A DNA stretch of 26,675 bases, taken from positions 1 through 26,675 of the forward strand of contig JAANBB010000499.1 of the NCBI GenBank assembly GCA_014621425.1. Reading direction: 5' to 3'. Positions 652 through 22,865 of this stretch are shown in pieces; the stretch's first letter is position 1, and every line of letters starts with the position of its first letter. Both the position numbers and the translations under genes were made by a program. The notes under the pieces are model-generated. The model searched no databases and had not been told where the DNA came from. It worked only from the letters and a program-made list of their open reading frames with translations. Origin of the DNA: Cylindrodendrum hubeiense (taxonomy: Eukaryota > Ascomycota > Sordariomycetes > Hypocreales > Nectriaceae).

Positions 652-3038
652 ATGATCCCGACGCGGGGATCGGAGCCAAGGCTCGGCTTTGCCGGGCTCC
701 TTGCAGCCTTGCTGCTCACCCTGAGCAGCTTTGCCAATGGCTACGACTTGGACCCCAACTCGACTCGTTCGTCGCATCCTCTGTCCGTTTTTGATAAGGA
801 TGCATGCTGATTTTAACTTTCCCGTCCAGAATCGGTCAAGACAATCGCAAAGAGTATGGTTGCAGACCTAATGTCCTTTTACGACGGCGACCAGCCGGGT
901 AACACTCCCGGTCTGCTTCCTGACCCGTACTACTGTATGTACTTTCTCGCCCTCTTTGTGGTGACTCGGTCATCCTCGGCTTTGTTACTAATCGTTCTCG
1001 CAGGGTGGGAGGCCGGTGCCATGATGGGTACGCTCATTGGTACGTACACGCATTGTCTTGGTCGTGGGCACGAGTACTGACGTGATGTTCAGAATATTGG
1101 TTCTACACCAAGGACGATAAATATGTCAACGCTACCAAACAAGCCCTGCTTTTCCAGGTCGGCGAATACGACGACTACATGCCCATTAACCAAACCAGAA
1201 CCGAGGGAAACGATGACCAGGGTTTCTGGGGTCTCGCCGTCATGTCCGCCGCCGAATACAACTTTCCCCACCCCGATCCAGACCAACCACAATGGCTCGC
1301 CCTCGCCCAGGCCGTTTTCAACACCCAGGCCGCCCGGTGGGATACTGAACACTGTGGTGGTGGCTTACGATGGCAAATTTTCCAGTGGAACACCGGTTAC
1401 AATTACAAAAACTCGATTTCCCAGGCATGCTTCTTCGCCCTCGGCGCCCGACTCGCTCTCTTCACCGGCAACGACACCTATGCCGACTGGGCTGACAAGT
1501 CATGGGACTGGATGGAAGAGGTCAAATTCATCGACAAGGAGAAGAACTGGGCTGTTTATGACGGCGCGCATATCGAGACCGGCTGCACCAACATCGTCCC
1601 CTACCAATTTTCCTACAACGTCGGCGGCTTCATTCTCGGTGCGGCAGCCATGTACAACTATACTGAGAGCGACGTTTGGAAGAACCGCCTCGACAACTTA
1701 ATTGAGGGCGTCAAAGTCTTCTTCACTGGTCCCGACAAAAACATCATGGCAGAAGTCGCCTGCGAGCCGGTCAAACTCTGCAATACCGATCAGCAGTCCT
1801 TCAAGGCCTATCTAAGTCGCTGGCTGGCCGTTACTACACAGTGGGCTCCCCACACCGCCGATACCATCAGACCACTATTGAGAACATCCGCGGTCGCCGC
1901 TGCAAAACAGTGTGTCGGGGGTGACAACGGGCACATGTGTGGTATGATTTGGACCAAGGATAAATACGATGGAACGACCGGTGTGGGACAGCAGATGGCC
2001 TCCCTAGAGGTTACGCTCTCTTGTATAGTTGGTCAACGAGGCGCTCCCTTGACAGCCGACAACGGAGGCACTAGCAAGGGCGACTCAGGTGCTGGCTCTG
2101 AAGATATTGGGCGGACGGAACCAAATCGCAACTGGCGGCGCATAACCGCGGGCGACAGGGCAGGCGCTGCTATCCTCACCACACTTATCATTGGCCTGCT
2201 TGTCTGTGGTGTTGGCTGGATAATGGTCGACGAGTCGTCGGAGAAGAGCGTGAAGGACCAGTTCAACGGTTTCTGCACTTCGACCATTGGCACTATCGCC
2301 GCTGTAGCCGGAGTTGGGGGTGCTGCCGCAACTCTGCATCGGAAGGACTCAACGGTAGTCAGAGAGAAGGCTACTGCTGTAGTAGGAGTTGACTCCAGCG
2401 AAGGCAGCTCGCGGGTCAGTGGCGACAAGGAAATTGCTGACCTTCCTCCCGTCCTGATCGGAAACGTCCGCAACCAAGAGCCGGGCCACCAGCGTCGAGT
2501 TTCGAGTATGCCCATAGGATGGCCGCATAACCGGTCGATGAGAGGGAGTGCCATGCTTGACCCTGACGGCATTTATTCCATGGCTGGAGGAAGCCAGTCC
2601 CGAATAGATCTCGCAAGCATCTACAAAACGCCAAACTTCTCTCGGCCGGATCTGAGCTCGACAGACAGGAACAGCCACACTTCCGAAAACACAAATCCGA
2701 TGGAAGAACGAAGACGCTCTGCGGAGGTATTTTATGACTCCACTGAAACCAATGGGTCGACTGGAGAGAAGCACCAAGCGACAGATGGCACCAGCAGTTC
2801 CGTAGAGCACGATTCGCCTGAGGAGACTAGCCGAAATACGGAAGAAGAGGATCGCCTGGCGGAAAGCACCATTCCTTTGGAGGATAATGGCAAGAAGAAT
2901 GCAGCTCCTATCGAGGACGCTCATTCTAAAGAAGAAACTGATTCGTCACCAAAGGAAAACGATTTGTCCCCAAAGGAAACCGATTCGTCACCAAAGGAAA
3001 GGGAATCGTCTGAAGAAGCACCTCTTTCAACGAAATAG
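652..3038 (+). CDS. GH76 alpha-1,6-mannanase-like cell-wall protein (Dfg5/Dcw1 family), membrane-anchored with long tail
   Basis: Exons 652-766, 830-934, 1004-1039 and 1093-3038 join in phase (introns 63, 69 and 53 nt, all GT-AG) to give 733 aa. The start at 652 is followed by a hydrophobic signal peptide (about residues 10-30). The GH76 domain follows, with the family motif GNDDQGFWG carrying the adjacent acidic pair D126-D127 that matches the catalytic Asp pair of GH76 enzymes, and then CGGGLRWQI. Dfg5/Dcw1 proteins act at the cell surface, where they are thought to cleave GPI-glycan mannose and transfer glycoproteins into the wall. They normally end in a GPI-attachment signal. Here a transmembrane-like segment (about residues 441-464) is followed by some 270 more residues: a second weakly hydrophobic Ala/Gly stretch (about 479-501), then a Ser/Glu/Lys-rich tail ending in ETDSSPK-type repeats. 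Membrane anchoring rather than GPI anchoring is an inference. Family assignment is secure; the tail is unusual. Confidence 0.93.
2934..3008 (+). repeat. 21-bp coding tandem repeat (ETDSSPK units)
   Basis: Three consecutive 21-bp units (2934-2954, 2955-2975, 2976-2996), plus a diverged partial copy, encode ETDSSPK, ENDLSPK, ETDSSPK and ERESS at the C-terminus of the GH76 protein. The 7-residue period keeps frame, so copy number could vary between strains without breaking the gene. Confidence 0.85.
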
Positions 3039-4940: not shown

Positions 4941-5867
4941 TCAAGCGGAGCTGTTGTAAGTCTCATTCACTCTCTCGTTTTCCCTCTCCAAATATTCCTT
5001 GAACGTGCCTAGCGGAATTCCCCACTCCTTGACCTCGTCCATGTTAACAAGCCGGGACATGTCCCGCATGGCAAGTTGTCCTCCAAGGAAAATGTTGGTT
5101 GAAATCTGTGCCTCAATCTCCTCCTCCGTTAGATACACAGCCTTCAATTCCCGCCCCGATGCCTTCGAGACCTGTTCCAGAAGCGCATCTACACCTACCA
5201 ACTCATCCGCAAAGGCAACCTCCTTGCTGCTGAACCGCTCGGGCTCTAGAACTGCTGCACATGCGAAGAGCCCAATCGTCTTGGTGTCGACCATGGGCAG
5301 CACCGTCTCCCGTGTCAAGGCCGTGGCCCACACACCCTGCTCGACCAGCCCGGCGTACATGCGCACGAACGGCTCCAGGAAGTTGGCCATGAAGTTGCCG
5401 GGGCGCAGGATCGTCCAGTGCTCGTAGCCCGCCTCCCGAACCTCGCGCTCGATGCCCTGCTTGGAGCGCAGAACCATAGCCACAAAGCCTTGCTGATCTA
5501 GAAATCTGAGCTTCTCGAGTTGGCCTACGCCGAATCCGCTAGAGTAGATGATGTGCTTGGCGCCGGCGGCCTTACCGGCGGCGATGATGCTCTTAGCCCA
5601 GACCGTCTCGGAGGCCAGGTTTTTGAGGTCGGGCATCAAGTTAATGAAGATGGTGCCACAGCCAGCGGTGGCGGCCTCGAGGGCTTCATTGTTGTCGTAG
5701 TCACCATGCCAGAGCTTCACGCCAAGAGTCTCTAGGGCTTTGGCTTTGTCGGAGGTTGGGTCTCGGGCCAACGCGTGTACTTCGACATTCTTTGCGCGAA
5801 GGCAGCGGGCGAGGGCGCCACCTTGAGTGCCGGTAGCGCCGCAAACGAAAACTTGAGAGGGAGACAT
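4941..5867 (-). CDS. NmrA-like family NAD(P)-binding Rossmann protein
   Basis: A single exon of 308 aa. The N-terminus VFVCGATGTQGGALARCL is the glycine-rich dinucleotide-binding loop (GATGxxG) of NmrA/HSCARG-type atypical short-chain dehydrogenases. Further family features are the acidic HGDYDN turn after beta-3, HIIYSSGFGVG in the central strand (residues about 105-115), and TILRPGNFMANFLEPF (about 153-168). Members are NAD(P)H-binding redox sensors or reductases such as isoflavone-reductase-like enzymes; substrate cannot be told from sequence. The usual SDR YxxxK pair is not evident, which fits a regulatory or NmrA-type protein. The length is normal for the family. The gene is divergent from the Zn2Cys6 regulator 487 bp away and tail-to-tail with the oxidoreductase relict, so control by that regulator is plausible but unproven. 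Confidence 0.9.
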   Translation of the reverse strand: MSPSQVFVCGATGTQGGALARCLRAKNVEVHALARDPTSDKAKALETLGVKLWHGDYDNNEALEAATAGCGTIFINLMPDLKNLASETVWAKSIIAAGKAAGAKHIIYSSGFGVGQLEKLRFLDQQGFVAMVLRSKQGIEREVREAGYEHWTILRPGNFMANFLEPFVRMYAGLVEQGVWATALTRETVLPMVDTKTIGLFACAAVLEPERFSSKEVAFADELVGVDALLEQVSKASGRELKAVYLTEEEIEAQISTNIFLGGQLAMRDMSRLVNMDEVKEWGIPLGTFKEYLERENERVNETYNSSA

Positions 5868-6354: not shown

Positions 6355-7625
6355 ATGTCTCTGACTACGCGGGAACGACGGAACCCTCCGCCGCGGCGGA
6401 AGTCGTGTGCAGCCTGCATCAAGGCTAAGCGGCGCTGCGACATGGCCCTCCCAGCCTGTTTGAGATGCTCCCAGCGGCGAGTTCTCTGTCAATACCCGAG
6501 CCGAGGTATCCGCGACCAGAATCCCGCGAAGTCCCAATCGGACCCGATGTCGGGTCTGTTGATTGAGGATGTGGTGTGCTTGTCTCCGTCGATGGCGGGG
6601 CAATTTGAGGGAAGCATTGAGGACTTCAACTCAGTGGCGGCCATTGACACAAACTTCGACAACTTGGCACCTTTTGAAATTTCAATTGATGAGGATACCT
6701 TGGGTTTATTGCATCAATCATCAACGCTGGCTCCTCCATCAACAAGGGTGTTCGATGCCGTTCCAGAGGCGATCACGAATCGGTTGCAGTGGTCTATAGA
6801 TGAGATCTGCAAGGCACCATCTACTATGATTCTAGAGAACAGAACACCTTGGTGCCACCCGATGGTATACAAGGATGAGATGCCTCGCTCTATCCAAGGC
6901 GAGCTCCTCATTCCCCACCTGGAGCTCAACTAACCCCTGATGTAGATGCTCATGCCTGTTGTGCCCTATACCTGGCAAAGAACCGCGTGAATGCACCCGT
7001 CATCTTTCGCTCCATCGAATCCCGGGTCAGCGACCTCCTCTGTTCCCCTGTCCCCAACACACCGAAGGATTGCCTCGCACATACCCAAGCACTACTCCTC
7101 TACCAGATAATACGTCTATTCGACGGTGACATTGCTGCCCGGGCCTCTGCCGAGCACGACCTTTCCGCTATTGAGACCTCTGCCATCGCCCTCTTCGCTC
7201 ACGCCAAGTTTGACCTTGACCCAGTCTCAACTGAACTGCCCCTGTTTCCTATTGGACCCACCAAGAAGTTCTGGCACGAATGGATCCTGAACGAGTCGAT
7301 TCGTCGCACGCTCCTCATAACCTTCTACTTCCTCCAAATGTATCGAATCATTTCGCTCCAAAAGGGGCTGCACTGCGACGGGAGGTTGGGGCTCTGCCAT
7401 TCGTGGACGGTGTCGTCTTACCTGTGGGGGGCTCAGACGCCAATGGAATTTGCGGAGGCGTGGAAAAACAAGAAGCACTTTGTGGTAACGAATGCTAGCT
7501 TCAATGAGGTACTAAAGGAGGCGATGGCAGATGATGTAGATACGTATGGGAAGATATTTATTACCTCGTTGGTGGGGATTGACGAGGCGGAAGGTTGGTT
7601 TGCGAGTAGAGGGGGCAGCCTTTGA
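6355..7625 (+). CDS. Zn2Cys6 fungal transcription factor, GC-AG intron
   Basis: Exons 6355-6898 and 6946-7625 give 407 aa. The N-terminus has the binuclear zinc cluster C18-X2-C21-X6-C28-X6-C35-X2-C38-X6-C45 with a basic stretch (KAKRRC), which binds CGG triplets. The rest resembles small secondary-metabolism or pathway-specific regulators (PWCHPM..YKDEMPRSIQDAHACCALYLAKN, then helical LLLYQIIRLFDGD). The frame breaks after SIQ unless a 47-nt intron (6899-6945) is removed. Its 3' end is canonical (CTAAC branch, TAG), but the only donor restoring the conserved reading in phase is GC rather than GT. Unspliced, translation stops at 6931-6933 and leaves a 192-aa protein with only the DNA-binding part. 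The gene is divergent from the NmrA-like gene and a likely regulator of it. Class is certain; target and ligand are unknown. Confidence 0.85.
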
Positions 7626-8201: not shown

Positions 8202-8327
8202 GCGGGTTTAGCTCAGTTGGGGTATGTCTACACATTAATCCCTCACTCAAGCAATCACTAACCTTCACTGGCAGAGAGCGTCAGACTGAAGATCTGAAGG
8301 TCATGTGTTCGATCCACATAAACCGCA
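8202..8327 (+). tRNA. tRNA-Phe (GAA) with a 53-nt insert in the D-loop
   Basis: Joining 8202-8221 to 8275-8327 gives a 73-nt tRNA without encoded CCA. The acceptor is GCGGGTT/AAACCGC (one G-A mismatch at pair 5-68). The D-stem GCTC/GAGC, anticodon stem TCAGA/TCTGA and T-stem ATGTG/CACAT are all fully paired. The anticodon loop CTGAAGA carries GAA (Phe), the variable loop is AGGTC and the T-loop is TTCGATC. The D-loop AGTTGGGA has the same 8-nt form as yeast tRNA-Phe only if the insert 8222-8274 is removed. There is no intron at the usual 37/38 site. Internal Pol III promoters are intact: A box TAGCTCAGTTGG ends at nt 19, just before the insert, and the B box core GTTCGATCC is whole. The gene could be functional after splicing, or a dead copy. 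Confidence 0.9.
8222..8274 (+). other. Spliceosomal-type intron inside the tRNA-Phe gene
   Basis: The insert begins GTATGT, contains CACTAAC (branch A at 8261, 13 nt from the end) and ends CAG. Its 53-nt length is typical of fungal mRNA introns. It sits between G20 and A21 of the tRNA, and exact GT-AG removal restores the tRNA. This is unlike endonuclease-spliced tRNA introns, which in nuclear genes of fungi lie one nucleotide 3' of the anticodon. Whether it is spliced cannot be told from the sequence. Confidence 0.75.
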
Positions 8328-8337
8328 AGGACTGATA

Positions 8338-8342
8338 TTTTT
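8338..8342 (+). terminator. Pol III T-run terminator
   Basis: A run of five T residues starts 11 nt after the last tRNA nucleotide, as expected for a Pol III terminator. It supports the view that the tRNA transcription unit is still intact. Confidence 0.65.
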
Positions 8343-8836: not shown

Positions 8837-11269
8837 ATGTCTCTACACAATCTTGACACGAATCCACCGAACGGGGGCCGGGACAACGCCTCCCTCCTGT
8901 CCCCTAATGGGTACGACGACGATGCCTCATCCATCCATTCTCGAAGCGACCAAGACACCGACAGCGACGATGACCAGCTCATCTCTCGCGCCAGAAATAG
9001 CCGCGAGCTCCGCGCCCACGATCGCATTGTGCTGATGGAGGAGGAGGAGACGGACAAACTGGTCACCGACACCCGCAAGAAGCAGGAACGGGAGCGTCGC
9101 GGATCTGGATTGGCCGTTCCCAACCCGCTAAAAATGTTCGGACGGCGCCCTGGTTCTTCCCGGGGCCTAGATCCCAACAGCTCGACCGAAGACCTGGTAT
9201 CCGAAAAGAGGACCGTCAGGCGCACGAGGAGACAGAAGAAGCGAGAGAGGCTGCTGGACAATGCGCATCATGGCGAAGACGGAGAGCTGATGTACGAGAT
9301 GGAAGAGGGAGGCATGAAAGAAGGCAGTTCGACCGGGGAAAGCAGCGAGAGGGACGACAGCGACGAGATGGACCGACTTCACCTCAACATGATAGCTGAC
9401 GCAAAGGCCCAGCGAAGACGGACCTGGCGCCGGTGGGTGCTCATTCACACCCTCATCGCCATCGGTTTCGCAATCCTGATTCTTATCGCCTGGAAGCTTT
9501 CAAACACCCGAAAGAGGGTGCTGCCCAAGGCACAGGCGATGGTGAGCAATGGCACTGCGCTCTTTGCGCCCACCACCCTCATCATTAGCCTGGACGGTTT
9601 CCGCGCCGACTTCCTCCAGCGCGGCCTCAGTCCCAGGTTGAGCGCTTTCATCAAGGAGGGTGTCTCGCCAAAGTGGATGCACCCGTCATTTCCCTCCGTG
9701 ACTTTTCCGAACCACTACACGCTCGCGACTGGGCTCTATCCCGAGAGCCATGGCATCGTTTCAAACACCTTCTGGGACCCCGAGCTTGGAGCGGAGTTCT
9801 ACTACACCGATCCTGCGCGAAGTCTCGACCCCAAGTGGTGGGGCGGAGTGCCTTTCTGGGTGACGGCTGAGGAGCAGGGAGTTCGAAGTGCTATCCACAT
9901 GTGGCCTGGGAGCGAGGCACATGTCCTCCACACGGAGCCGAGCATCATGGACAAGTTCAGCCGGGAGGACACACTCGATGGCAAGGTTGCCAGAATCCTC
10001 GAGTTCCTGGACATGCCAGGCGCAGAGGATAAATCGGCCGACTTCAAGGACATGCGTCCTCAGCTGATTGCCGCCTATGTTCCCCATGTTGATTCCGACG
10101 GACACAAATATGGCCCCAACAGCACCGAAATTCGCGAAACCATTACCAAGGTGGACACGATGATGGATCAAATCTTCACGGGCCTGGAGGAACGCAACTT
10201 GACTGATATTGTCAATGTCATCGTCGTCTCCGATCACGGCATGGCGACAACGGACATTACCAGGCTGATCCAGCTTGAGGATCTTATCGACACCAGCAAA
10301 ATTGAGCATATTGACGGCTGGCCGCTGTATGGTCTTCGTCCTAAGAACCCCGAGGATTTGCAAGGTCTTTATGAGGAGCTTGTAGAACACTCGAAGTCGA
10401 AGTCTTTCGAGGTTTACCTTCGTGACAAAAATATGCCCGAGCGGTATCACTTCACTAAGAATGACCGCATCGCTCCCTTGTGGATCGTGCCTGAGACGGG
10501 ATGGGCGATTGTCACCGAGGAAGAGTTCAACGTCAAGGAAGGACTGGAAAAGAATCTAGTGTACCATCCCCGTGGCCTACACGGGTACGATCATGAGCAC
10601 CCGTTGATGCGGGCCATCTTCATTGCTCGTGGCCCTGCATTCCCCCACCCGGCGAACAGCCAGGTCGATGTGTTCCGTAAGTCAAGCCCACCGCCGGGGC
10701 GCCGAGAATCCGCTGGCTAACATTGCACAGAAAATATCGAGGTGTACAACCTGCTGTGCGACTCACTCAACATCGAGCCACATCCCAACAACGGAACCTT
10801 GCGGTTGCCGCTGAAGCCCGTAGGACTCCACAAGCCCGAGGAATCGCCCGATGAACCGGCAGATCCCGAGACTTCGGATAAACCAAGCGAGTCGACGAAG
10901 CCGGAGCAACCAGCTGTCCATGAGAAGCCGACGCAGCCAGCGCGGCCGACCTTACCCGTTGCGCCGTCGCAGCCAGCTCGCCCGACGGCACCCGAGAAGC
11001 CGGAGGAGCCAGAGGAGCCAGAGGAGCCAGAAGAGCCAGAAGAGCCAGAAGAGTCAGAGATTACAGAAAAGCCAACCAAACCGACCAAGCCAACCAAGCC
11101 GGCAAAACCCACCAAGCCCGCGAAACCGACATCTGGTAGCAATGATTCTGACGACAAGGACGGCAAAGACGACGAGGATGACGACAAGGACGACGGCGGC
11201 TGGTGGGATTGGCTGACTGACAAGGTGGACAAGGCATGGCACAAGATCACGGGATCAGATTCTGACTGA
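8837..11269 (+). CDS. Type II membrane nucleotide pyrophosphatase/phosphodiesterase (NPP family)
   Basis: Exons 8837-10676 and 10731-11269 (54-nt GT-AG intron) encode 792 aa. An acidic/basic cytoplasmic N-terminus of about 200 residues is followed by one transmembrane anchor (about 201-219) and a lumenal or extracellular phosphodiesterase domain. Visible NPP signatures are the metal ligand Asp253 in SLDGFR, the Thr289 nucleophile in VTFPNHYTL, HVDSDGHKYGP, VVSDHGM, and GLHGYDHEHP near the domain end. Enzymes of this family hydrolyse nucleotide phosphodiester or pyrophosphate bonds; yeast Npp1/Npp2 help scavenge phosphate from nucleotides. After the domain comes a Pro-rich tail with PEE and KPT/KPA repeats (about 705-752), an Asp/Lys-rich stretch and GGWWDWLTDKVDKAWHKI at the end. 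The start at 8837 (CAACATG) is the first in-frame ATG giving the anchor. Substrate specificity is not predictable. Confidence 0.93.
10996..11130 (+). repeat. PEE and KPT/KPA coding repeats
   Basis: Degenerate 9-bp units encoding PEE run from about 10999 to 11056, followed by 9-bp units encoding KPT or KPA from about 11068 to 11130. They form an extended charged, Pro-rich stalk after the catalytic domain. The antisense frame across this stretch (Gly/Leu/Ser repeats) is a mirror of the repeat, not a gene. Confidence 0.8.
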
Positions 11270-12458: not shown

Positions 12459-15400
12459 ATGGCTACCATGAGCGTCACCGCGTTGACGGAGGAGCTGACC
12501 ATCCAGAAGGTGATCCTGGACTCGCTGCAAAACCAGACATTTGACGGTGCCGATGAGGAGCGCTTTGAGGCTCACCGGGAGATTGAACGCCTGAAGAATC
12601 TCCTGCGCATGGCAAACCATCAGCGGGAAGATGCTGACGGTAAGGCTGCCCGCTTCCCCTGTTGCCGCAGCCCGGATACACGTTGATGGACTCGAATTGA
12701 CCAAACTGATAGAGCCGACGCTTCCACCCGCGACGCTCCAACGCCCTTTCGGCAACCAAACGCCCACCGGGCCATCTCAAGGTATGAGCCGTTTGTGTTT
12801 CATTTGTTTCCTCGGTGGCTTGGTGATTCTGCGCCTCCCTCATCTCTGTTTCCCTGCTTTTTTCTTCCTCCTTGGATCTGCGTTTGTCGCACATGACCCT
12901 CTTCAACCTGCCTTTTTCAACCCTCCTCTGCCATCTCACATCTGTCTCTCACCCATGCTCGTGGGTCTTTTGCTCGCCCTCGGACCGCTATCAAAAGGCC
13001 TGCGCCTCCCCCCGACTTTCATTCACCTTTCTCATTCACAGCCCGCACACACCGAGGCCCGTTCCTGCCTATCTTTGTCCTGTCACTCACTCACCTTGCC
13101 TTCGCAATTATAAAAACCCCTCTCACCAAGCCTAATGTCTTTCTTCTACGATCATGATTATCTCATCCAACAAATGGCAGATTTCCCGGAGCTACCTCTC
13201 TCTTACAGCCCTTTTCTCTCAACAACACCAGGCCTCCCGACTGATCTCGTCCCACAAGTGCACGAGCCCACCGATGTCCCAGTAGCCATGTCAACGCCTC
13301 TCAGGAGCAACAACACATGGAACGACCTGGGGTCACGTTCTTTGCCCAGTCGCAAGCGGGACTCTGAATCCGCTAGTCTCTTTGCCCCCATCGGACCTAG
13401 CAAGTCTCGACGTGCAACTCCGGTTACAGCCACGGATCCCTTCTTTCATTCACCGTCTCTCGGCAACCTCAACGGAAGTCAAGTCGACGTCATCGACCTT
13501 ACTGGGTATGTCTTTCTACGTCATTTTTCGTATTTCATCTTGATTTCTGCTATGCTTTTGCCTATGTCAGCCGAGCCATATACTAACCCTACATATCTAG
13601 GGACGATGATGAATTCAACTCTCACTACATTGCCCAGCAAATTGAGGCTGAGAAAGCACGCAAGCAAGAGAAGGATGACCATGAGTTTGCCCGCCTGCTT
13701 TCTAGCCAGGGATCTCCAATGCCAGGCCCATCCGCCCTACCAGCGCAAACCAATGCTTTCACTCGGTTGATGAGCAGTCAACCATCCGGCCCTATCGACG
13801 CAGATCTAACGGATGGAGATTCAGAGGCATCATTCGGAGTCCCCTACCCTAATCCAGTACCCCTGCCAGGACCGCCTACAAACCAAATGCCAGGGGGATA
13901 TGATCCCAGCTGGGATGCGGCCGTTCCTCTTCGCCAGAACCCCCCAATACCCGCGGCAAACGCCATGTCTAGAGGCTATGGGCCTGTCGTGACAACTCCC
14001 CAGGTGCCTACGTTCAATGGATTTACGGTCGCTGGCAGTAACATGCCACACCCCACCTACCGATCCGGGGTGCCACTGCCAAATATGGGCCCGATCCCAA
14101 CCCAATTATCGGGCCAAATGCCGAGCCAATTCCCAGGTCAATTCTCAGGACAGATTCCAGGCCCGAACCAAGGCTTTCCACATTTTGGAGGCCGACCTGT
14201 ACCGGCAATGCCGTCCTTTGCAGGACCTAGCACTACGCCATGGATTCCCGGTGCTCGCTCAACTCCTATTCTAGCGAGTCAGGGCATGCCAGGCTTGTCT
14301 GATATTATCAACAAGACAAGCATGTTCGACTACACTATGGGCATAGATGGATCTGGCAATGCTCTGCCCGAACACTTGACCAATTTTATCCAGGACGCTT
14401 ACCACGATCCTAGAATGACTGACAAAGACTTGGATAATCTCTTGCAAAACATTCGTCCCGACATGGATATCCCAGAGAGAAACCGTGATGGAACGCCAGC
14501 TGGGCTAAAGAGGCCACTGTACCCTCACCAAGAAGTAGCCCTCACCTGGATGAAGAAGATGGAAGAGGGGACAAACAAAGGAGGTATTCTTGCGGATGAC
14601 ATGGGTCTCGGGAAGACTATTTCCACGCTAGCTCTTCTCCTGTCCCGTCCAGCAACCAGTCGCCCAAAGGTAAGTTGTATACCTATCTCTCGTATTATTG
14701 ACGCTAACCTTCACAGACAAACCTGATCGTGGGCCCAGTTGCTCTCATCCGGCAGTGGGAGGAAGAGCTCTCCACGAAGACAAAACTTTCTCACAGGCTA
14801 TCGGTTTTTCTTTACCATAATAAAAAGGCAACGACAGAGGATCTGCTCAAGTATGATGTTGTTTTGACAACTTACGGTACCATCGCTCAAGAGCTGAAGC
14901 GACTCGAGAAGTATCTCGAGGACAACAAGGATCGCAAGATCGACTTCAACGACAAGAACTTTTGCGTCAAGTGTCCCCTGCTACACCCGAACAAGGCAAA
15001 GTTCTATCGCATCGTTCTCGACGAAGCACAATGCATTAAGAACAAGGACACGAAAACTTCAAAGGCATGCGCCAAGTTGAAGGCAACCTACCGATGGTGC
15101 TTGACCGGAACCCCAATGATGAATAGCGTTCTAGAACTCTACTCCTTGCTCAACTTTCTTCAGATCAAGCCTTATTCCGCATGGGACCAGTTCCGTCAGG
15201 TATGTCACAACAACAATGTTTGAATCGCTCGGACTAATCTCTTAATAGTCATTTGGTGTCTTGTTTGGCCGCAACGGCGATGCAAAGAGCGTAGCCATGG
15301 ATCGGCTTCGTGCGCTACTCAAAGCAATCATGCTTCGACGCAAGAAGAACTCGCAGCTTGATGGCAAGCCTATTCTCAAACTTCCAGAGAAAATAGAGGA

Positions 15401-16754
15401 GGTTGTTTACGCCGAGTTGTCTCCGGAGGAACACGACTTTTATAGTCAGCTGGAGAAAAAGTCCCAAGTACAGTTCAGCAAGTACCTTCGAGACGGGAGC
15501 ATCGGCAAAAATTACTCCAGTATCCTTGTTCTCCTGCTTCGACTACGCCAGGCATGTTGCCATCCCCACCTCAACTTGGACGTCGACGACGTCAGCTCCG
15601 TTTCTGACGAAGAAAAGGTGGATTTGGTCAAGTCTCTGAATGAAGCAATCGTTGAGAGAATCAAGGGCATTGAGGCCTTCGAATGTCCCATCTGTTATGA
15701 CGCTGTGCAGTGCCCCACATTCTTTGTCCCCTGCGGTCATGACAGCTGCAGCGAGTGCCTCTGCCGTCTCACTGAAAATGCTACGGTGCTCAATTTGCAG
15801 GAGGGAAACGAAGGAGGCAAGGCTAAGTGCCCTGTCTGCCGTGGTACATTCGATCCTAGCAAATGTTTCACGTATGAAACCTTTCAGAAGATTCACATGC
15901 CGGAGTGCGTCCCGAAAGCAGAATCCGAGGAAGAGGCATCGGATGATGACGATGATGACGAGCCAGACTCTGATGATTTTATCTCCGATGATGAAGTTAA
16001 CAAGCAGGGCAATCTTAAAGGCTTCATTGTGGAGGATGACGACGATAACGACGAAAAACCGAACAAGAGGGTACTTGACAAGGACAAGAAGAGGAAGAAG
16101 AACAAGGGCAAGAAGAAGGCATCAGACATCAAGCCCTCGATGCTCAAAACCCTTCGCAAGGAGGGCTACAAGAACCGGGATGCTTTCAAAAAGTACATGC
16201 GATACTTGCGTAAGACGTGGATGCCTGCCGCAAAGGTAACGGAATGCATGGAGCTCTTGAAGAAGATCTCCGAAACCGGGGAGAAAACAATCATTTTCTC
16301 TCAGTGGACCCTTTTGCTCGATCTCCTCGAGGTAGCAATGTGGCATGAGAAGATGGCGAAACCAGAGAGATATGACGGCAGCATGTCGGCTATGCATCGA
16401 AACATGGCGGCTCACAACTTCCGAGACCGCAAGGACGTCAAGGTGATGCTGGTCTCTCTCCGAGCGGGTAATGCGGGACTCAACTTGACAGCCGCATCCC
16501 GAGTCATCATCATGGACCCTTTCTGGAACCCATACATTGAGATGCAGGCCGTTGATCGCGCCTATCGTATCGGCCAACAGAAGGAGGTCAAGGTGTACCG
16601 TATCCTGACCAAGGACACGGTCGAGGATCGAATTGTTGCACTGCAGGAGAAGAAGAAGTCGATTGTGGAGGCGGCCTTAGACGAGGCTGAGAGCATGAAG
16701 ATTGGACGCCTGAGCACCGGCGAGCTGAAGTTCCTTTTCAATGCGCGCGGTTAG
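12459..16754 (+). CDS. SNF2-family ATPase with embedded RING finger (Uls1/Rad16-like)
   Basis: Exons 12459-12639, 12713-12781, 13181-13505, 13601-14669, 14717-15199 and 15249-16754 join in phase to 1210 aa. Residues 1-60 form a charged helix. VDVIDLTGDDDEF (about 185-195) has the hydrophobic-then-acidic form of a SUMO-interaction motif. The ATPase has Walker A ILADDMGLGKT (about 520) and motif II DEAQ (about 650). A C3HC4 RING (CPICYDA...CGHDSCSECLC...CPVCRGTF, about 855-908) lies between the two helicase lobes, then an acidic/Lys-rich linker (about 935-1000) and the C-terminal lobe (IIFSQWTLLLD, LVSLRAGNAGLNLTAASRVI, QAVDRAYRIGQ). RING-in-SNF2 proteins include Rad16, Rad5 and Uls1; the SIM favours Uls1, a SUMO-targeted ubiquitin ligase/translocase acting in the nucleus. 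The 5' end is the weak point: exon 2 and the 399-nt intron 2 are placed on splice phase only, and another acceptor (13130) or a start at 13135 is possible. Confidence 0.93.
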
Positions 16755-20534: not shown

Positions 20535-22865
20535 TCAGCCTTCCTTGATAACGGGACTGGGACACGGCTTGGGACTGGGGCACGCACTGACAACTACACT
20601 AGGAGCGCGGCTGTGACCGGGACGCTCTTCTCCAGCCTCAACAACCGACCCCTCCGCCATGGTCGTTTCCCGCCTCAGAAGCCTCCATCGGCGCAGCTTC
20701 GAACGCGGGTTGTCGCCTAGCATCGTCGGCATCAGGTCATCCTCCAGGATGGGCACCTCGGAGAGCGGGTCCAGTTGGTCGATGATGTCGGCAATGTCCG
20801 GGGGCGGCGCCGCCATGAACACGGCCTGCACGTCGCCGTACGGCGAGAAGCTCATGAACTGCCACTTGGACGGCTTCTTGGTTTTGGACATCTGCGCAAA
20901 CCGCCGACGCTCGAAGAAGCCGATGAGCAGCAGAGTGAAGAAGTTGAGCGTGCGGATCAGCGCCACGTTGATTACGTGGAACACACGCGCCGACGCCACC
21001 AGCTTCAACGGGAGGAGGAGGATTAGGGCGACAATGTTAAAGGGGGGCGGGTAGGCGAAGATAGAGTCGCTCTTAACACCCTCGAATGTCAGCACGGCGC
21101 GGCGGAACTGGATCTCGGCTGTCTCGTCGGCGATGATTTTGGAAAAGGTGTTTGTGAGCATGGCGATCAGAATAGTCAGGAATAGCGTGTTGCCCAGGAA
21201 GGCAAACGAGATCATGAGCGCCGGGCCGAGGATGGTATGGAAGCGAACCGACTCCTCGATGCCCTCGCCGTCCAGCCCGAACCAGATCCAGAGCATCCAC
21301 TTGCCCACAACAACCCAGCTGAACTCCTCGCGGCCGTCGTTGCCGGCGGCTACGAGCCATTGCAGCGCGAGCAGGAAGCCCGTGAAGCACCACGTCGCCA
21401 GGAACGTCAGCACAGTAAAGTCCCGCATCATGGCGTGCAACGAAATGAAGACGATATTGTTAGGCAGCAGGTTGAAGGCAACACGGGTCAGCATAATCGG
21501 CGCCGCGATGCAGAGGATCGGCAAGCCCCAGCCGCTGTGAAGCTGGTCAAGCATCAGATCGGCCAGGCGGGCAAGGAGGTAGGCACCGAAGATGGAGGTG
21601 AAGGTGATGTCGAGGAAGGCCCACAGGTTTTGGGCGTGGACTTCCCATCCGTGCTCGATGATGGCCGCCAGCTTCTCGAGGACCCAGCCAGCCGTGTAGA
21701 TGATGAAGGCGAATTCCCACGGGTTGAATTCCGAGTGCCGCGAGACCATAGTCATGACGTAGAGGCCAAGCAGGATGATAAACTGGAGGAGCTCAATGAG
21801 ATTCCTCGTCCGGGGGACAATCAGACGATGGTGGTTCAGAAGAGGAGCTTTGCGGGGGTCATAGAGAGAGATGGGACGGCGCTTATAGTGATCCGGGAGG
21901 ATATCCATAAAGGACTGGGGCGTATAGACGATTTGACCATCATGGACTGCGTCAACGGCTCGCTGACACGCCGAGGAGCTGATGAAGGTCTTGCTCTCTG
22001 ATAGAATGGCAAGTTCCAGGGCAGTGACCTTCTTCTCGTTGCCGTGATTCTCCTGATCGGGCAATTGAGATTGTGTCTTTCGGCTCCGGCCCCGGCGCCG
22101 GACAATAGCTGGGGCACCCTGGAACGGATCAAAGCCTTCCACGAGGATGTGAGCAAGCAGGAGAAGGCCCTGTGGTCCTGGGTTGTCCTCATGGAAGCGG
22201 CGGAGGATGCGACTTGCAAGAAGCTCGCACAGCGTCGCTCGGGCGACATTGACGCTCTGGTGGACCGTCTTTGACTGGTCTCGCAGGAAGGAGACGCGGT
22301 TGGCCAGCAAGCAGTAGACTGTCTCATGTCAGATGAGGCTCTTGGACACCATCCTATGTGGCTTACTCACCGACGGAGATGTCATCCGGGTTGTAGAGCC
22401 TGTCAACCAATGGTCTCACAACGAGGGCGTTCATCTTGGGATCCCTGAAGTGCTCCAAGGTGTAAGGATCATCTGAAGGATTGTTAGCGGCCATGGCCTT
22501 CAACGCACAGTACGAGGCTGCGTTTTCCCACAAGACACGTACCGATACTAGCAAGCACTAGACGCCGGACTCTGCACTCAAGAGGTGTTAGCACGCTGGT
22601 TCCTCGTCATCTCACGACTGGGCGATGGTCACGCTGCCGCGAGATCTGGGGACGCGTCACGCTGCGTCGGAAGCAGGCAGATTTACCGGTGAATGGTCAT
22701 GTACACAGGGAGGACCTCGGGCACAAGATTGAGGGTCGACCTATTGCCATCGTCGAGGCATCCCTTTGCCTCGGCGTCATCGGTGCCGGAGAGGAAGGCC
22801 TCGTCCTCCTCATCGTCAACGGGCCGCAGCCAATCGCCGGTGCGCTCAGAGCTGGACCGTGTCAT
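20535..22865 (-). CDS. YVC1: Vacuolar TRP-type cation/calcium channel (Yvc1 / spray family)
   Basis: Minus-strand exons 22865-22687, 22571-22543 (29 nt), 22472-22371 and 22318-20535 join in phase to 697 aa; all introns are GT-AG with clear CTAAC branch sites in the first two. The start at 22865 is the first in-frame ATG. The N-terminal cytoplasmic region has the family blocks EVLPVYMTIHR, DPYTLEHFRDP, NALVVRPLVDRLYNPDDISV and ATLCELLASRILRRF. Six hydrophobic segments lie at about 277-294, 306-323, 337-356, 368-387, 403-426 and 466-492, with a pore loop FGLDGEG (about 450-456) before the last one (LGNTLFLTILIAMLTNTF). Yeast Yvc1 releases Ca2+ from the vacuole on osmotic shock, and the Neurospora homologue is the spray protein that shapes the tip calcium gradient. 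The C-terminus is Pro/Ser-rich. The family is clear; vacuolar location is by homology. Confidence 0.93.

Follow-up and report, generated by a model that had tools for sequence, protein, structure and literature searches.

Textbooks treat the splicing of tRNAs and the splicing of mRNAs as two separate worlds. Introns of the mRNA type are also known in other RNAs: Tani and Ohshima in 1989 and Canzler et al. in 2016 reportedly described them in fungal U6 snRNA genes, and Rogers et al. in 1993 are said to have found them in fungal nuclear rRNA genes. The U6 introns resemble the intron described here in being short spliceosomal introns of a Pol III-made RNA, of which one of the two U6 genes found in the present genome is an example, and they differ in that the host snRNA itself enters the spliceosome, whereas the hosts here are tRNAs of two families. 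The rRNA introns likewise combine an mRNA-type intron with a non-mRNA host, but rRNA is a Pol I transcript. In the available text on fungal U3 snoRNA genes, introns are described with GTRWGT, RCTRAC and YAG signals and a branch site 6-36 nt from the acceptor (PMC5832005). These signals and a clustered insertion site make the U3 introns similar to the tRNA inserts, and paralogues with and without the intron occur in eight genomes, Fusarium and Nectria included, much as the tRNA families reported below are mixed; the U3 introns differ in their host, a snoRNA rather than a tRNA, and in their mean length of 92 nt (PMC5832005).

Introns of eukaryotic tRNAs are described, in the accessible portions of two sources, as processed by an endonuclease and a ligase (PMC4090602; PMC12621601). 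Like the present case, they interrupt nuclear tRNA genes and have to be removed, but they lie beside the anticodon and depend on endonuclease and ligase, whereas the insert here lies at 20/21 and has GT-AG ends and a branch site (PMC4090602). Disruptions of the D-loop are described as bulge-helix-bulge (BHB) type or undefined, and those of Cyanidioschyzon merolae and the Guillardia nucleomorph are alike in place, even reaching 20/21 in permuted type I genes; the C. merolae disruptions are BHB-mediated, and in the text available to us the combination of GT, branch site and AG is described for neither organism (PMC3978253). The available text on tRNAscan-SE 2.0 describes noncanonical introns for archaea (PMC8450103). 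Among the open-access literature matches listed, titles and abstract openings contained no report of a spliceosomal intron in a tRNA gene; subscription journals fell mostly outside this search, and an earlier description is possible. Within the open-access literature searched, mRNA-type introns are already known in U6, U3 and rRNA, and the tRNA hosts would be the new part. Scans for relatives in viral and prokaryotic contig collections gave 0 matches.

The gene lies in a 26,675-nt stretch of DNA from Cylindrodendrum hubeiense, which we refer to as the window. Direct reading of window positions 8202-8327 on the + strand identified a tRNA-Phe(GAA) gene in which a 53-nt insert splits the D-loop between G20 and A21, with the following features.

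8202..8221, + strand: tRNA-Phe(GAA) exon 1, tRNA positions 1-20, the same in six of seven intact copies and with one change in C111
8209..8220, + strand: Pol III A box TAGCTCAGTTGG, from the sequence, which stops one base short of the last base of exon 1
8222..8274, + strand: 53-nt spliceosomal-type (GT-AG) D-loop intron between G20 and A21, an arrangement common to seven intact Phe genes (this one counted) and five Asn genes
8222..8227, + strand: 5' splice site GTATGT; GTANGT in all 12 intact copies
8257..8262, + strand: branch site ACTAAC, with the branch A at 8261, 13 nt from the insert end; CTAAY in all 12
8272..8274, + strand: 3' splice site CAG (the insert ends GGCAG); CAG in 7 of 7 intact Phe genes and AAG in 5 of 5 Asn genes
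8275..8327, + strand: tRNA-Phe exon 2, tRNA positions 21-73, from the sequence and from ARAGORN on the joined exons
8288..8290, + strand: anticodon GAA in an uninterrupted anticodon arm without a 37/38 intron, from the sequence and from ARAGORN on the joined exons
8307..8315, + strand: Pol III B box GTTCGATCC, in exon 2, from the sequence
8338..8342, + strand: T5, a likely Pol III terminator; a T run of 5-8 lies within 40 bases 3' of all 12 intact intron-bearing genes

TAGCTCAGTTGG and GTTCGATCC were assigned to the two promoter boxes by the Pol III consensus. This reading agrees with the preliminary description, which had reported the same split and splice signals, an insert just behind the A box, an intact B box, a T5 terminator and no 37/38 intron. 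That account had also predicted that exact removal of the insert would leave a 73-nt tRNA with an 8-nt D-loop, and ARAGORN called the 73-nt joined exons as tRNA-Phe(gaa) with a D-loop of that size. When the unspliced gene was supplied, ARAGORN found no tRNA, also when it was allowed anticodon-arm introns as long as 200 nt. It likewise found none in the window, which contained no Rfam family at the gathering threshold. The A box, the B box, the T-run terminator and the cloverleaf that appears once the insert is removed are those of a Pol III tRNA gene, which predicts its transcription, and the tRNA is a tRNA-Phe with a single acceptor-stem mismatch, G5:A68. The insert at 20/21 does not occupy position 37/38, where a canonical tRNA intron would lie. 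A purine-purine mismatch at 5:68 was present in all nine tRNA-Phe genes found, as G:A in seven and as G:G in C111 and C557.

Copies of the gene were sought in the window's own assembly (47.5 Mb in 798 contigs, the relevant ones denoted here by C and a number). BLAST with the 141-nt region returned nine places, all tRNA-Phe, eight of which bear an insert and lie on six contigs. A search for tRNA-Phe anticodon arms without interruption (two mismatches or fewer), which would miss any Phe gene with a 37/38 intron, matched ten places, namely the nine from BLAST and C545, which contains no tRNA. The seven intact insert-bearing copies were recovered by both searches, neither of which requires splice signals. 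For the list of tRNA-Phe genes that had been proposed as a check, these searches gave nine: seven are intact with a 53-57 nt insert and lie on five contigs (C444, C70 with three, C13, C111 and C295), one is decayed (C31) and one is insert-free (C557). The 73-nt exons are identical in six of the seven intact genes and differ at 2/73 positions in C111, and flanks and insert interiors vary despite these near-identical exons.

The two remaining tRNA-Phe genes differ from this set in distinct ways. The decayed copy (C31:41609-41730) has 10/73 exon changes, and its insert starts with TT instead of GT and ends with AC instead of AG. The preliminary description had considered that the window gene might be a dead copy, which does not fit; the decayed copy is another locus, and neither of its splice-site dinucleotides is left. 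The intronless gene on C557 differs at 6/73 positions, and four of these changes compensate each other in two base pairs (4:69 from G-C to A-T and 49:65 from A-T to G-C), which suggests that it is a live gene, and its D-loop reads GTTGGGAGAG, the exact junction that removal of the insert would leave. Comparison of upstream flanks, with C31 left out, gave z > 5 for the C13/C111 pair alone. A stretch like ACATGAAGCCTCC is common to C13, C111, C31 and C70, about 20-30 bases upstream of several tRNA-Phe genes, and may be a promoter element or have been left by a duplication. At two other loci (C87:49861-49990 and C168:187907-188037), ARAGORN called a tRNA-Phe(AAA) that by eye resembles a tRNA-Ser(TGA) with a long anticodon-arm intron.

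A second family carries inserts at the same structural site. Five tRNA-Asn(GTT) genes (C90:141842-, C117:27657-, and C795:20385+, 20693+ and 24609+) have a D-loop GT-AG insert of 51-54 nt between 20a and A21, and all five inserts end in AAAG. Their exons are identical at 74/74 positions among the split genes and to an intronless tRNA-Asn on C795, and by eye C90 and C795b resemble each other upstream. A general tRNA search, in which 63 of 1339 candidates were scored and 59 listed, gives less than a full tRNA count and sets the number of intronless Asn genes at one or more; further ones may exist in the genome. The window gene is consequently one of at least 12 such genes (seven Phe and five Asn) rather than a lone oddity, and most of the tRNA-Phe and tRNA-Asn genes found in the genome carry an intron at this one D-loop spot.

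Other families were sought with seven sequence patterns, which would overlook genes with differing 5' splice sites or B boxes. Two patterns that join an A box to a 5' splice site behind it gave eight matches (the seven tRNA-Phe genes and one non-tRNA) and 11 matches (the five tRNA-Asn(GTT) genes among them), and two further patterns of this type gave six and five matches without a tRNA. One pattern, unable to detect Phe because of its B box or Asn because of its leading G, produced four matches and no tRNAs. A broader pattern (5' splice site, AG before A21-G22, B box) matched ten places, comprising four Phe genes, five places without a tRNA and a tRNA-Tyr on C108, where GTATGT sits upstream of the gene. 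A second broader pattern matched 12, comprising five Asn genes, two Phe genes, three places that are not tRNA-like by their letters, and two candidate places, C667:80674-80770 and C774:8384-8463. Reversed versions of the seven patterns gave 7, 5, 6, 9, 2, 7 and 15 matches, which indicates that match counts mean nothing alone and that the matched letters decide. C667 and C774 aside, no family besides Phe and Asn with such a D-loop insert appeared among the matches of the seven patterns.

The splice signals are retained in every intact insert. All 12 (51-57 nt) start with GTANGT and contain CTAAY, whose branch A lies 11-13 nt from the end; the terminal AG is the first AG after the branch site. 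The 5' splice sites are GTAAGT in seven, GTATGT in four and GTACGT in one (C70c), so that GT-AG holds for 12/12 and GTRWGT for 11/12. RCTRAY at 6-36 nt from the acceptor also holds for 11/12, the exception being TCTAAC in C295. The departures from consensus are the AAG ends of the Asn inserts, where fungi prefer YAG and all seven Phe inserts have CAG, the T before CTAAC in C295, where fungi prefer R, and the GTACGT of C70c. When insert letters were placed in random order, one of 200,000 sequences combined a GTRNGT start and a terminal AG with CTRAY at 6-20 nt from the end, compared with 12/12 real inserts, which were themselves found partly with patterns requiring a 5' splice site.

Between these signals, the inserts have diverged. 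The core of the C295 insert compares with the other six Phe cores at z -1.5 to 1.1, like shuffled letters, and the closest pairs are C444/C70a among Phe (z 8.0) and C795a/C795c among Asn (z 4.9), where 8/10 pairs fall below z 2. Constant exons and splice signals next to freely varying interiors are what selection for exact removal would be expected to produce. The copies are partly related by duplication (C13/C111, and by eye C90/C795b), which means that the 12 genes are not 12 independent cases. The preliminary description had raised an introner-like insertion, a term that implies near-identical intron copies across many genes; this suggestion was not borne out, as BLAST with the gene, a short query for which common words were skipped, reached nine places that are all tRNA-Phe, and the inserts are diverged, several of them no more alike than shuffles. 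Between the families, z is 3 or higher (3.3-3.9) in 4/35 Phe-Asn core pairs, each of them involving C795c, a weak hint of either shared origin or composition.

The same signals occur in mRNA introns of the window. Three introns of the neighbouring SNF2/RING gene were located by eye at reading-frame breaks.

13506..13600, + strand: mRNA intron of 95 nt, GTATGT...ACTAAC...TAG
14670..14716, + strand: mRNA intron of 47 nt, GTAAGT...GCTAAC...CAG
15200..15248, + strand: mRNA intron of 49 nt, GTATGT...ACTAAT...TAG

All three share the signals of the tRNA inserts, and one reads GTAAGT...GCTAACCTTCACAG. We also found two U6 snRNA genes, one uninterrupted (C450:12981-13083) and one (C41:36727-36888) split after ACAGAGAAGAT by a 58-nt intron that reads GTGAGT...ATACTAAC...CACAG, which indicates that a second kind of Pol III gene has an mRNA-type intron in this genome. 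The C41 gene also has a long 5' stem-loop. The genome contained one match to SRP RNA, whose 286 bases for a 293-position model indicate that it has no intron. Depletion of T runs was considered as a mark of Pol III transcription and discarded: 13/14 motif-predicted introns likewise lack T4, which makes the absence of T runs in the inserts no evidence, and about a third of the motif-predicted set (18 matches versus 5.7 in shuffles) may be chance.

From these sequence features, we conclude that the window gene is very probably a working nuclear tRNA-Phe gene, read by Pol III, with a U2-type D-loop intron that the spliceosome removes. The preliminary description had offered removal by the spliceosome as one of its readings, and the 11 further intact genes in two families, the intronless genes with the exact junction and the signals kept in diverged inserts argue for it. 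They suggest that the spliceosome, rather than the usual tRNA splicing enzyme, finishes these Phe and Asn tRNAs. The shared signals in the neighbouring mRNA introns and in the split U6 gene, and the loss of both splice-site dinucleotides in the decayed C31 copy, point the same way, whereas the AAG ends of the Asn inserts and the TCTAAC of C295 weigh against it. Pol III would transcribe the gene from its own A and B boxes. The insert begins two positions after the end of the A box, exon 2 contains the B box, and each of the 12 genes is followed by T5-T8. The spliceosome would then recognise GTATGT, ACTAAC and CAG in the precursor and release the insert as a lariat, in parallel with the presumed spliceosomal removal from the U6 precursor, and the resulting normal 73-nt tRNA would fold and mature. 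We infer an origin by intron insertion, perhaps by reverse splicing, just behind the A box. Behind the A box, this is the earliest point at which an insert leaves both promoter boxes whole, a possible reason why two families share it. An intronless gene is present in both families, which indicates that the split genes need not be essential.

An alternative, which we consider very unlikely, is that the inserts are unusual tRNA introns processed by the tRNA splicing endonuclease and tRNA ligase, comparable to those in the D-loop of Cyanidioschyzon tRNAs or at ectopic sites in the Guillardia nucleomorph, and that the GT-AG ends are incidental. D-loop and ectopic introns of this kind do exist, a permuted C. 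merolae junction lies at 20/21, and many Guillardia introns lack a defined BHB in the available text (PMC3978253). Of 80 ARAGORN gene calls at 50 loci (loci overlap and isotype names are unchecked), 9 have a predicted anticodon-arm intron of 12-38 nt, which suggests that the ordinary tRNA splicing machinery is probably present in this fungus. However, in a strict scan for a BHB with 3-nt bulges at the joints, neither the central nor the outer helix was complete in any of the 12 genes (seven Phe and five Asn), the partial helices reaching at most 3/4 central and 3/4 outer pairs, and single-sequence folds of the inserts had no shape in common. GTANGT, CTAAY and AG at narrow spacing in 12/12 inserts also argue against an endonuclease, and we know of no role for these signals in endonuclease splicing. 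In the BHB scan of the Phe genes and in an accompanying alignment, C111 was entered with the common exon 2 rather than its own. In 6/7 Phe folds the anticodon arm is paired with the intron tail CTTCACTGR. A structural gating by this tail was not adopted, as 95/300 insert shuffles of C13 were equally or more stable, which gives no sign that the pairing is special. Of the unspliced genes given to ARAGORN, 0/4 Phe and 1/5 Asn were detected; the one detected, C90, was parsed with a 51-nt anticodon-arm intron, which counts against the GT-AG reading of C90.

It is at least as improbable that the intron-bearing copies are silent and that the tRNAs are supplied by intronless genes, of which there are one for Phe and at least one for Asn. 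The decay of one intron-bearing copy (C31) is in line with silence, but in the other copies the exons are identical although the inserts are unrelated and the flanks mostly so, splice signals and T runs are kept, and gene conversion would have to transfer the two exons each time while leaving the insert out. That the copies are a tRNA-derived repeat (SINE) family or an assembly artefact is highly implausible, despite the upstream stretch common to several Phe copies and the clear upstream relationship of C13 and C111, as BLAST gives just eight insert-bearing Phe places on six contigs with mostly unrelated 3' flanks, and two tRNA families carry different inserts.

If the spliceosomal reading of these introns is extended to the genome as a whole, we lean towards a model in which mRNA-type introns of a filamentous fungus have colonised one structural site, just behind the A box and in front of A21, in at least two families of tRNA genes, in which most tRNA-Phe and tRNA-Asn genes would need the spliceosome and translation capacity would be tied directly to mRNA splicing, and in which related fungal genomes may hold such genes unannotated. 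tRNA finders do not model such inserts, which is how cases in related genomes may stay unannotated. tRNA counts can be wrong for the same kind of gene, as illustrated by the unspliced genes that ARAGORN overlooked and by the misplaced intron in the one it called. If the GT-AG tRNA introns work, the spliceosome is able to process a tRNA precursor and tRNA supply would be coupled to splicing; two families with one site and paralogues with and without the intron would also provide a natural test system for intron entry.

The surrounding genes were also identified from matches of the window's reading frames.

1179-3035: GH76
4944-5867: NmrA-like
6355-6930: Zn2Cys6 factor
8837-10717: nucleotide pyrophosphatase
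15261-16751: SNF2/RING helicase
20538-22310: YVC1-like channel

The protein encoded by 8837-10717 places the source in the Nectriaceae (Hypocreales): it is 92% identical to a Dactylonectria macrodidyma protein and 93% identical to an unnamed protein, with Neonectria, Thelonectria and Fusarium next.
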